Source: a virus
IMG/VR virus record: IMGVR_UViG_3300037847_004330
Span: 1 to 26,961 of that record
DNA: 26,961 bases
Reading direction: 5' to 3' (one strand)
Below are positions 24,665-26,961 of the stretch, in pieces. The notes under the pieces are model-generated. The model was given only the letters and a program-made list of their open reading frames with translations. It made no database searches and was not told the origin of the DNA. Both the position numbers and the translations under genes were made by a program. Positions within the stretch are counted from its first letter, which is position 1. Every line of letters starts with the position of its first letter.

Positions 24665-24874
24665 ATGTTTAAGTATGACGAGTGTGAATCAGATCATTTT
24701 AATTATACGCATTGGCGTTGTGCGAATGATTGCGAGCGAGAAGCGTGGGGAGAGCGTAAACTTAATGACCGGGAAGCCCGAGCACTATTCCAACAACTGA
24801 AGGCAAGCGGATGGCTGAAAAAGCAATCGACAAACCAAAGCGCGGAAGACCAAGAAAGAATAGACCAGCACTAA
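24665..24874 (+). CDS. Small Cys/His-containing protein before small terminase
   Basis: The product is 69 residues with a strong AGGAGG (24654-24659) five bases before ATG 24665. The sequence DECESDHFNYTHWRCANDCE carries three cysteines and two histidines that could bind zinc. The rest is helical and charged. Its end overlaps the small terminase gene by 64 bases. No family is recognised. The very good ribosome site in front of it supports expression of both genes from this start. Confidence 0.65.
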   Translation: MFKYDECESDHFNYTHWRCANDCEREAWGERKLNDREARALFQQLKASGWLKKQSTNQSAEDQERIDQH

Positions 24875-25347
24875 TCGAACCCCCGAGCCAGTTCGAGGCA
24901 AACGACGAATACGGCATAACGGAGATGCAAAGCGCCTTCGTATTTTTTTATACCGAAGGCGCGTGCGGACAAACAGAAGCTGCGCGTAAAGCCGGGTTCA
25001 GTTTCCCAGCAGCAGCCGCAACGAAGATGCTCAACGGTAAAGACTTCCCGAAGGTGACGCGCGCTGTACGGATCGCCCAGGATGAAATGCGAGAGAAGTA
25101 CGCCATCACGCCCGAAAAGACCGGCAGCATGTTATGGAAGATCGCCGAGACCAGCTTCGAGACAGGCGCGTACAACGCAGCGGTGAGCGCAATCAAAGAG
25201 CTGAACCAGCTCGCCGGCTTGACGATACACCGGAGCCAGAACCTCAACATTAACGCGAACATCGACCAGATGACCAAGGACGATATCAAGTCTAGGCTCA
25301 ACCAACTGCTGGGTGTGCAGGAGGATCTCGACCCGAAAGACCGCTGA
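24811..25347 (+). CDS. terS: Terminase small subunit with N-terminal AT-hook
   Basis: The product is 178 residues. YGITEMQSAFVFFYTEGACG, then QTEAARKAGFSFPAAAATKM and FPKVTRAVRIAQDE match the Terminase_2 helix-turn-helix domain (about 36-90) that binds the packaging site. A helical C-terminal part (SAIKELNQLAGLTIHR) would form the oligomer. Residues 9-17 (PKRGRPRKN) are an AT-hook, unusual here and shared with the DUF3310 protein. The large subunit is not adjacent within the window, which is atypical; it may lie beyond the right edge. ATG 24811 has AAGG upstream. Confidence 0.85.
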   Translation: MAEKAIDKPKRGRPRKNRPALIEPPSQFEANDEYGITEMQSAFVFFYTEGACGQTEAARKAGFSFPAAAATKMLNGKDFPKVTRAVRIAQDEMREKYAITPEKTGSMLWKIAETSFETGAYNAAVSAIKELNQLAGLTIHRSQNLNINANIDQMTKDDIKSRLNQLLGVQEDLDPKDR

Positions 25348-25384
25348 CAGTCGGGCCGGGAGAGAGGGGTGATCTAAACCATAA

Positions 25385-25402
25385 AAAGGCCCTCTGCCTT
25401 TC
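25385..25402 (+). terminator. Weak terminator-like hairpin after small terminase
   Basis: AAAGGC (25385-25390) and GCCTTT (25396-25401) pair around a 5-base loop. The stem is short and the T run brief, so support is weak. Confidence 0.3.
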
Positions 25403-25831
25403 TACCCCCGCAAAATCGCCAAAAAAGCCAAAATTTGGCAAAACTCACCTAAATTATTGATTTGATTGCAGTTTTTTGCACGCAGTGGCAACTGTTTGCA
25501 TACGCTCAGGGGTCGCCCCGTGCTCACGGCAGTAACCAGGCGCCGGCCGACCTGGTGCACGAGCACTGAATCGCGCGTCTAACGCACGCAGAGCGCGCCT
25601 GAGAGGCGCGACACACCAACCAATGGGTCTCTATGGGTCCAGAAAAAGGGCCTGAAATCGCGCATACGGGCGACCCCCTACACCCCCTATATACGGTCGC
25701 GGCCGCGCGCCATGGCTATAGCTGAGTTTGGTACATTCAGTGATCAAAAAATTTCAAAGGGAAAGGGACCCTCAAACCATCGGCTGGAGTAGGTGCCGAT
25801 TGACGGGGTGGTAAGAGGGTCCCAGTAGAGT

Positions 25832-25863
25832 CGGTGTGGAAACATCACCGCTCTTTCAATTTT
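25832..25863 (+). terminator. Hairpin with T-rich tail before the Met/Gly-rich gene
   Basis: CGGTG (25832-25836) and CACCG (25846-25850) pair, and CTCTTTCAATTTT follows. It could end an RNA from the gene-free region, or sit in the leader of the next gene. Confidence 0.35.
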
Positions 25864-25918
25864 GTACCACATTCCGCTACTATCGGCACTTCAGATAACG
25901 GTAGCCAGGCTGATCACA

Positions 25919-26731
25919 ATGTATATGTCGCCTTACCAAAATTCGAGATCTCAGTTCATTCGCTATCAACAGCCTATGATGCAGCCTATGTTCCGACCGC
26001 AACCGGCGTTTATGGGACCTCGCCAGTACGTTCTACCGCCTCGCCAAATGCCACCACCTCAACCTATTCAACCTCTTGTGAGCACATCTCAACCGATCGG
26101 TTCCCTATCGGGCGCAGGTGGGCAGTTAGGTCAACCAGCAAGCGGTGCGCCAGGACAAGCTCACAAGTCTTTGGAAGAGGTTCTGGCGGAGAAAGGCTTT
26201 CAGCTACCGAAAAAGCCTACCGGCCCTGTGACTCAAGACCATATGATGATGGGGCCTGATCCGGTGACAGGCAGAATGCGTGGGGGTGGCAGCAGTGAGC
26301 GACCCTATTACAAAGCGATAGACGATTTTTACGCGCAAAACCCAGAAGCTTTGGAAATAGCAAAGCAGTACAATGCTGACCCCGGCTCGTTTGGTTCAGT
26401 TGTTCAACACGGGTTGGCTCGTATTCCCACGCAAATTGGCGGCGGAGTCCCAAACGCTTTGGCGGGACAATTAGGCACCTCCATAGCTCAGCCTGCTCAA
26501 GCACAGCCAATGCAAGCAGAGCCTGCGCGTCTTAGTCAGCAAGGCATGAATCAGATGCAGCAAATGCAGGCGATGATGCAGCAAATGATGCAAATGATTG
26601 CCGCATTGAGCAATCGAGGTGGTTTTGGCGGTGGTTTTGGTGGTGGTTTTGGCGGTTACCAGCCTCCCATGCAGCAAACTCTTTTTGGAGGCATAGGCTC
26701 CATACCCATGGGCCGCGGCCTGTATTTCTAG
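25919..26731 (+). CDS. Met/Gln/Gly/Pro-rich virion-like protein
   Basis: The product is 270 residues from ATG 25919 (AGG nine bases upstream; ATG 25925 also possible; the frame is open further up without a good start). The N-terminal third is Pro/Gln/Met-rich (MQPMFRPQPAFMGPRQYVLP). A small ordered-looking part (SLEEVLAEKGFQLPK; YYKAIDDFYAQNPEALEIAK) is followed by a Gln/Met coiled stretch and GGF repeats near 26620-26655. The composition resembles the start of the internal protein at 8564, so a virion or scaffold role is plausible, by analogy only. Its TAG directly precedes the GTG of the nuclease gene. Confidence 0.7.
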   Translation: MYMSPYQNSRSQFIRYQQPMMQPMFRPQPAFMGPRQYVLPPRQMPPPQPIQPLVSTSQPIGSLSGAGGQLGQPASGAPGQAHKSLEEVLAEKGFQLPKKPTGPVTQDHMMMGPDPVTGRMRGGGSSERPYYKAIDDFYAQNPEALEIAKQYNADPGSFGSVVQHGLARIPTQIGGGVPNALAGQLGTSIAQPAQAQPMQAEPARLSQQGMNQMQQMQAMMQQMMQMIAALSNRGGFGGGFGGGFGGYQPPMQQTLFGGIGSIPMGRGLYF

Positions 26732-26961
26732 GTGGCAGACAGTAGAAACAAGGGAGCTGCGTTCGAGCGCGCCGTATGCAAGCGCCTGAACGAGTTTTTT
26801 CTCGAAGAGGGCATTGATCTTTCTGTGCAGCGAAACTTATCGCAATATCAGGCAAAGGATCTGTGTGACATCGAACTCCCTGGCTACGCGATTGAGTGCA
26901 AAGCCTATAAGTCTGGTTGGTGGCATCTTACTGCTTGGTGGGACCAGGTTTGTGACGCCTG
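26732..26961 (+). CDS. Holliday-junction-resolvase-like nuclease, 3' end cut
   Basis: GTG 26732 follows the previous TAG without a gap, and 76 codons are visible before the right edge. NKGAAFERAVCKRLNEFF, then QAKDLCDIELPGYAIECKAY fit a PD-(D/E)XK nuclease of the Hjc/phage resolvase type: E12, D46 and E55-x-K57 are the metal and catalytic residues. Such enzymes cut branched DNA before packaging. The C-terminal part is missing, so the exact subfamily cannot be set. Confidence 0.75.
   Translation, partial: MADSRNKGAAFERAVCKRLNEFFLEEGIDLSVQRNLSQYQAKDLCDIELPGYAIECKAYKSGWWHLTAWWDQVCDA

Follow-up and report, generated by a model that had tools for sequence, protein, structure and literature searches.

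A control region conserved in marine viruses links a likely DNA-packaging site with a hitherto undescribed RNA hairpin before a nuclease gene

What does a virus keep in a long non-coding gap between the gene for its terminase small subunit (terS) and the next gene? The question arose in a 26,961-base virus record, here called the window, by which we mean the whole stretch of DNA that was analysed. A first-pass annotation of its letters had singled out stem-loops nested in a gene-free stretch, judged them unlikely to be decoration, and proposed either a large non-coding RNA akin to GOLLD or ROOL or a cos or pac element. The stretch is indeed non-coding, and all of the arms are present letter for letter. 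We placed the gap at 25348 to ~25918, because the TTG-started form of the following open reading frame (ORF; 25862-26731) overlaps conserved non-coding sequence and its homologues begin at an ATG equivalent to 25919 or 25925, either of which is the likely start. Comparison with relatives suggests that this gap is a conserved control region of marine viruses, likely a DNA-packaging site (Module A) joined to a previously undescribed RNA hairpin (Module B) that precedes a nuclease gene (Table 1).

Table 1. Positions of the features discussed, numbered along the window.
Feature	Position	Strand	Basis or remark
terS, terminase small subunit gene	24811..25347	+	phrog_51 match, E=2.6e-8
Conserved non-coding region, terS to next gene (~570 nt)	25348..25918		alignment with relatives
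Module A, IHF consensus site AATCAATAATTTA	25450..25462	-	sole perfect WATCAANNNNTTR in the 27-kb record
Nested stem-loops	25505..25611	+	variable spacer between dyad and core; arms exact, not kept in relatives
Module A, conserved dyad GGTCGCCCCGTGCTCACGGCAGTAACC	25511..25537		nearly invariant in clade alignment A1
Module A, 136-nt conserved core	25624..25759		alignment; nhmmer match in 128 distinct loci
Core block GGGTCTCTATGGGTCCAGAAAA	25625-25646		alignment
Core block CGACCCCCTACACCCCC	25671-25687		alignment
Core block ATGGCTATAGCTGAGTTTGGTACATTCA	25712-25739		alignment
Module B, two-tier hairpin	25765..25823	+	outer arms GGGACCCTC/GAGGGTCCC, inner arms ATCGGC/GCCGAT, GGAG in loop
Module B, small second hairpin GAGTCGGTG...CATCACCGCTC, 3' of the two-tier one	25828..25853	+	RNAalifold pairs 486-495/506-514, compensatory changes
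Gly/Gln/Met-rich ORF	25919..26731	+	absent between site and nuclease in close relatives L003-L010
PD-(D/E)XK nuclease / RusA-like resolvase gene	26732..26961	+	cut by record end; matches on the full copy of L001

Searching IMG/VR with TerS yielded 80 loci. The gap is 97% identical in the two closest relatives (L001 and L002) and ~76% identical over ~510 nt in L003, L004 and L008-L010, whose TerS proteins are 91-93% identical. The TerS assignment is a single PHROG profile match, searches of Pfam, NCBIfam and the PDB returned no match, and an AlphaFold model of the protein (pLDDT 52.8) was too weak for a fold search. Just 3' of the terS stop (25348-25404 in the window, the first ~50 nt in relatives), a hairpin recurs whose stems vary and which is without a T-run, as in GCAAAGAGAGGCTCTCTCTTTGC of L088; RNAalifold gives it some compensatory pairs in the window's clade. 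No tRNA or tmRNA was found by a dedicated search.

The nested stem-loops themselves are mildly unusual, and modestly so once the search is allowed for. The 116 nt from 25500 to 25615 fold barely better than dinucleotide shuffles (RNA z=-1.07, DNA z=-1.09), and the minimum free energy structure of the stretch keeps the middle and inner arms and loses the outer CTCAGG/CCTGAG arm. Three nested perfect 6-bp arm pairs arise in 2.6% of shuffles of the stretch (P=0.026) and in 2 of the 926 tiled 116-nt windows of the record. Examined for covariation in homologues, as the first-pass annotation had itself proposed, the named arms failed. Across ten distinct sequences, including phages with TerS >90% identical, the nest is paired in 55% of cells and scores 0.143 for covariation, no more than a modest gain over slid controls (up to 0.096); the tight CGCGCC hairpin is paired in 62% of cells with zero compensatory change and does no better than a control shifted by 2.

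A function confined to the window's own clade, such as a lineage-specific packaging or RNA structure, would agree with the nesting probability, with the folding of a 70-nt window over the CGCGCC hairpin (z=-3.07) and with L001 and L002, which retain nearly all of the named pairs. That retention means little because these two relatives are 97% identical, and the pairs are lost in slightly more distant ones; we regard such a function as very unlikely. By sequence comparison, the named stem-loops are real but lineage-specific, and occupy a variable segment of a conserved control region with two modules. The first-pass annotation thus had the wrong arms and the right gap: the observation is confirmed, and the interpretation is partly supported, in that the gap is conserved and functional and the arms are not conserved.

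The conserved core of Module A lies downstream of these stems. In 114 of the 115 distinct loci with enough upstream flank it directly follows terS. Among the 45 loci recovered from the DNA pattern only, and so free of the bias of a TerS-led search, 44 show the same arrangement. In the one exception, L144, small genes separate terS from the core, and an IHF site is kept close upstream of the core instead of next to terS. Every large contig examined holds one copy of the core. Upstream of it, the dyad recurs in relatives as GTGCTCAC or its complement GTGAGCAC with paired flanks that vary; in distant loci it was recognised by inspection. We found no convincing repeat family in the gap, and the run of TTGCA next to the IHF site does not stand out from the rest of the record. 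As a side observation, extra genes enter at two points in the manner of a cargo hotspot, between terS and core in L144 and between core and leader in 13 loci. Blastn, and tblastn with TerS, against cultured phages gave no match. By TerL, which belongs to phrog_38 (phrog_2, tried as the terL family, was wrong), the nearest cultured relatives are 023Pt_psg01, HTVC027P, DSL-LC04 and HTVC023P at 56-62% identity, and a convincing core is absent from these four isolates (best E=0.019, in DSL-LC04). Neither terS nor the core pattern was matched in bacterial genomes.

Position next to terS does not by itself single out packaging, because the nuclease gene is nearly as constant a neighbour (3' of the core in 98/103 loci under strict criteria) and 54/54 loci have a primase no more than 4 kb upstream. 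The packaging reading is drawn mainly from the IHF pattern that adjoins terS. A perfect IHF consensus occurs in 54 of 121 terS-to-core intervals, compared with 1.2 expected by shuffling and with 2.3% of segments of equal length drawn from these loci, and is absent from the other 67. These sites lie at a median of 106 nt after the terS stop, mostly at 60-140 nt, in either orientation. Across relatives, A+T content rises to 0.63-0.66 at 60-120 nt past terS, and the window has an A+T-rich stretch at 25408-25500. In phage lambda, cosB holds an IHF site between the R sites bound by TerS, and TerS and IHF cooperate there (PMC4669245).

Module A resembles such a complex cos (cosQ-cosN-cosB, with R sites and IHF site I1) in occupying hundreds of base pairs beside terS, in containing an IHF consensus site, and in its palindromic and conserved blocks. 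It differs in that it follows the terS stop codon and is itself followed by a PD-(D/E)XK nuclease gene, and the site does not lie between the terminase genes, because TerL is ~14 kb away in G001, counted across contig ends. No R-site repeats or cohesive end were identified in Module A, and the likeness described here is one of layout. The cos or pac option of the first-pass annotation is accordingly plausible for the neighbourhood, as a TerS-linked, IHF-containing DNA site, and not for the arms it had named. Three contigs from different samples (L011, L019 and L023) have right ends within ~6 nt of one another, just after the AGCTATAGC block (window ~25721-25726). These ends may mark a genome terminus, or the assemblies may have broken at this conserved block. 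We did not count them as cos evidence, because assemblies also tend to stop at conserved blocks and no contig was seen with a left end to match.

The same features could instead mark a phage replication origin, at which IHF would bend DNA by the A+T-rich stretch and the upstream VapE/Toprim primase-helicase would load. An origin would use IHF too, so the IHF enrichment speaks for it along with the constant primase and the A+T rise. However, GC skew tracks gene strand and shows no turn at the site, an iteron array was not recognised, and the core directly adjoins terS rather than the primase. We consider an origin possible but unlikely.

We also weighed Module A as the target (att or res) of a phage serine recombinase. 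A resolvase-domain serine recombinase of 267-300 aa is encoded in 14 of 15 large contigs (phrog_95 integrase / phrog_125 invertase; for example at L254:4249-5094 on the minus strand and L259:8639-9427 on the plus strand), and the core contains dyads. Against this, in the two mapped contigs the enzyme lies ~7 kb from the core, by tail-fibre genes, the place expected of an invertase; the core occurs once in each large contig examined; no tyrosine integrase was found in the 15 contigs; and neither terS nor the core pattern has a counterpart in the bacterial genomes searched. A recombination target is, in our judgement, highly improbable. Both mapped contigs are broken within a tail-fibre-like gene, and genes of this kind adjoin the recombinase in each. 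A role as a tail-fibre-switching invertase would fit; no shared inverted-repeat pair was found.

A different hairpin, the two-tier hairpin of Module B, is conserved ~155 nt downstream of the named stem-loop interval. In a sequence alignment of the window's clade, six of its pairs change on both sides (shuffle mean 3.4; 7/500 shuffles reach 6), and its covariation score of 0.211, compared with 0.101 for shuffles (0/500), also exceeds every slid control. An independent sequence alignment of a second lineage (group B) gave 13 double-change cells compared with 5.6 in shuffles, although the number of double-change pairs was not above shuffles (130/500). A covariance model built from group B (R1) recovered 56 leaders in 128 sources, all 56 on the strand of the core; an additional weak match corresponds to the reverse strand of a leader. 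In the model's own alignment, which was fitted to the structure, both sides change in 18 of the 22 pairs; compensatory cells number 111, compared with 29 after shuffling, and the score is 0.326, compared with at most 0.105 for slid controls. In an alignment-free scan of 64 representatives, the folding z fell at the hairpin's position but not in its surroundings. Small second hairpins stand at the same place in other lineages, as seen by inspection.

In the lineages matched by R1, the leader also stands at a set distance before the nuclease gene. Inserted sequence, mostly genes, puts 204-1135 nt between core and leader in 13 loci, and there the leader still lies 38-42 nt before the nuclease start codon; most loci without an insertion have the same spacing. 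Because the leader keeps this spacing when genes part it from the core, Modules A and B are separable. The spacing does not extend to the window, where an ORF intervenes, and models from other lineages (R1 and R3) gave no match to 25765-25823, while the model of the window's clade (R2) reaches other lineages weakly (E about 0.02-1). From its position, its covariation in its own clade and the architecture that it shares with the family (outer stem, inner stem, GGAG loop and one-sided bulge), we infer that the window hairpin is the same element as the family leader. An intrinsic terminator was rejected for the two-tier hairpin, there being no T-run in the window.

The family itself shows covariation and a constant spacing to the nuclease start codon, and Module B as a whole would be a structured leader RNA of the PD-(D/E)XK nuclease gene, transcribed and regulatory. 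Like cis-regulatory mRNA leaders of the riboswitch-like or protein-binding kind, it has covarying hairpins that lie on the coding strand and precede the members of one gene family by a set distance; unlike them, it has no Rfam family match. The full nuclease copy of L001 matches PF24608 (E=7e-10) and the RusA-like phrog_244 (E=1.7e-19). In the window, the leader would precede both the Gly/Gln/Met-rich ORF and the nuclease gene, because that ORF sits between hairpin and nuclease; in L033, L034 and L044 its gene lies on the other side of the leader.

Might the whole gap, named stems included, instead be one large non-coding RNA of the GOLLD/ROOL type? It would share with those RNAs a phage-encoded, intergenic and structured character. 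The whole window gap folds better than shuffles (z=-2.51), and in relatives its upstream parts lean towards folding (mean z about -1 in 110-nt windows). But an Rfam search of the window, the gap and 15 loci returned no match, even at E<=5; no conserved structure runs through the gap, and the named arms are not conserved; the core is conserved at the level of sequence; and inserted genes part the two modules in 13 loci. We find this reading unsupported and highly improbable.

With moderate confidence, then, we favour a two-part reading, in which Module A is an IHF-assisted packaging site of cos/pac type beside terS and Module B is a structured nuclease leader RNA. Module A would be a DNA site made up of an IHF consensus ~100 nt after terS, the GTGCTCAC palindrome and the 136-nt core. 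TerS, aided by IHF bending, most likely recognises it on replicated DNA, so that packaging starts, as at lambda cosB; we infer TerS binding, IHF binding and DNA cutting, both its occurrence and its site. Module B, in which a small hairpin follows a two-tier one that has a GGAG-type loop and a bulge on one side, probably controls expression of the nuclease and, in this record, would control the inserted ORF as well. The module structure is well established, and these mechanisms are proposed on top of it. Packaging site and leader could even form one unit, in which the RNA senses TerS, IHF or occupancy of the site and gates a nuclease that trims or resolves concatemers. We think this improbable; if true, it would couple DNA maturation to nuclease synthesis.

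We found no description of this region in the literature, as covered by titles and abstracts, with subscription papers mostly outside that scope. Stem-loops that catch the eye may err in detail yet point to the right gap. As a candidate for a new family of structured RNA, the leader combines strong covariation with a fixed gene context and so is open to test straight away. An IHF-type packaging site in a widespread group of uncultured marine phages would offer a way to recognise from sequence the genome ends that are normally hidden in metagenomes.
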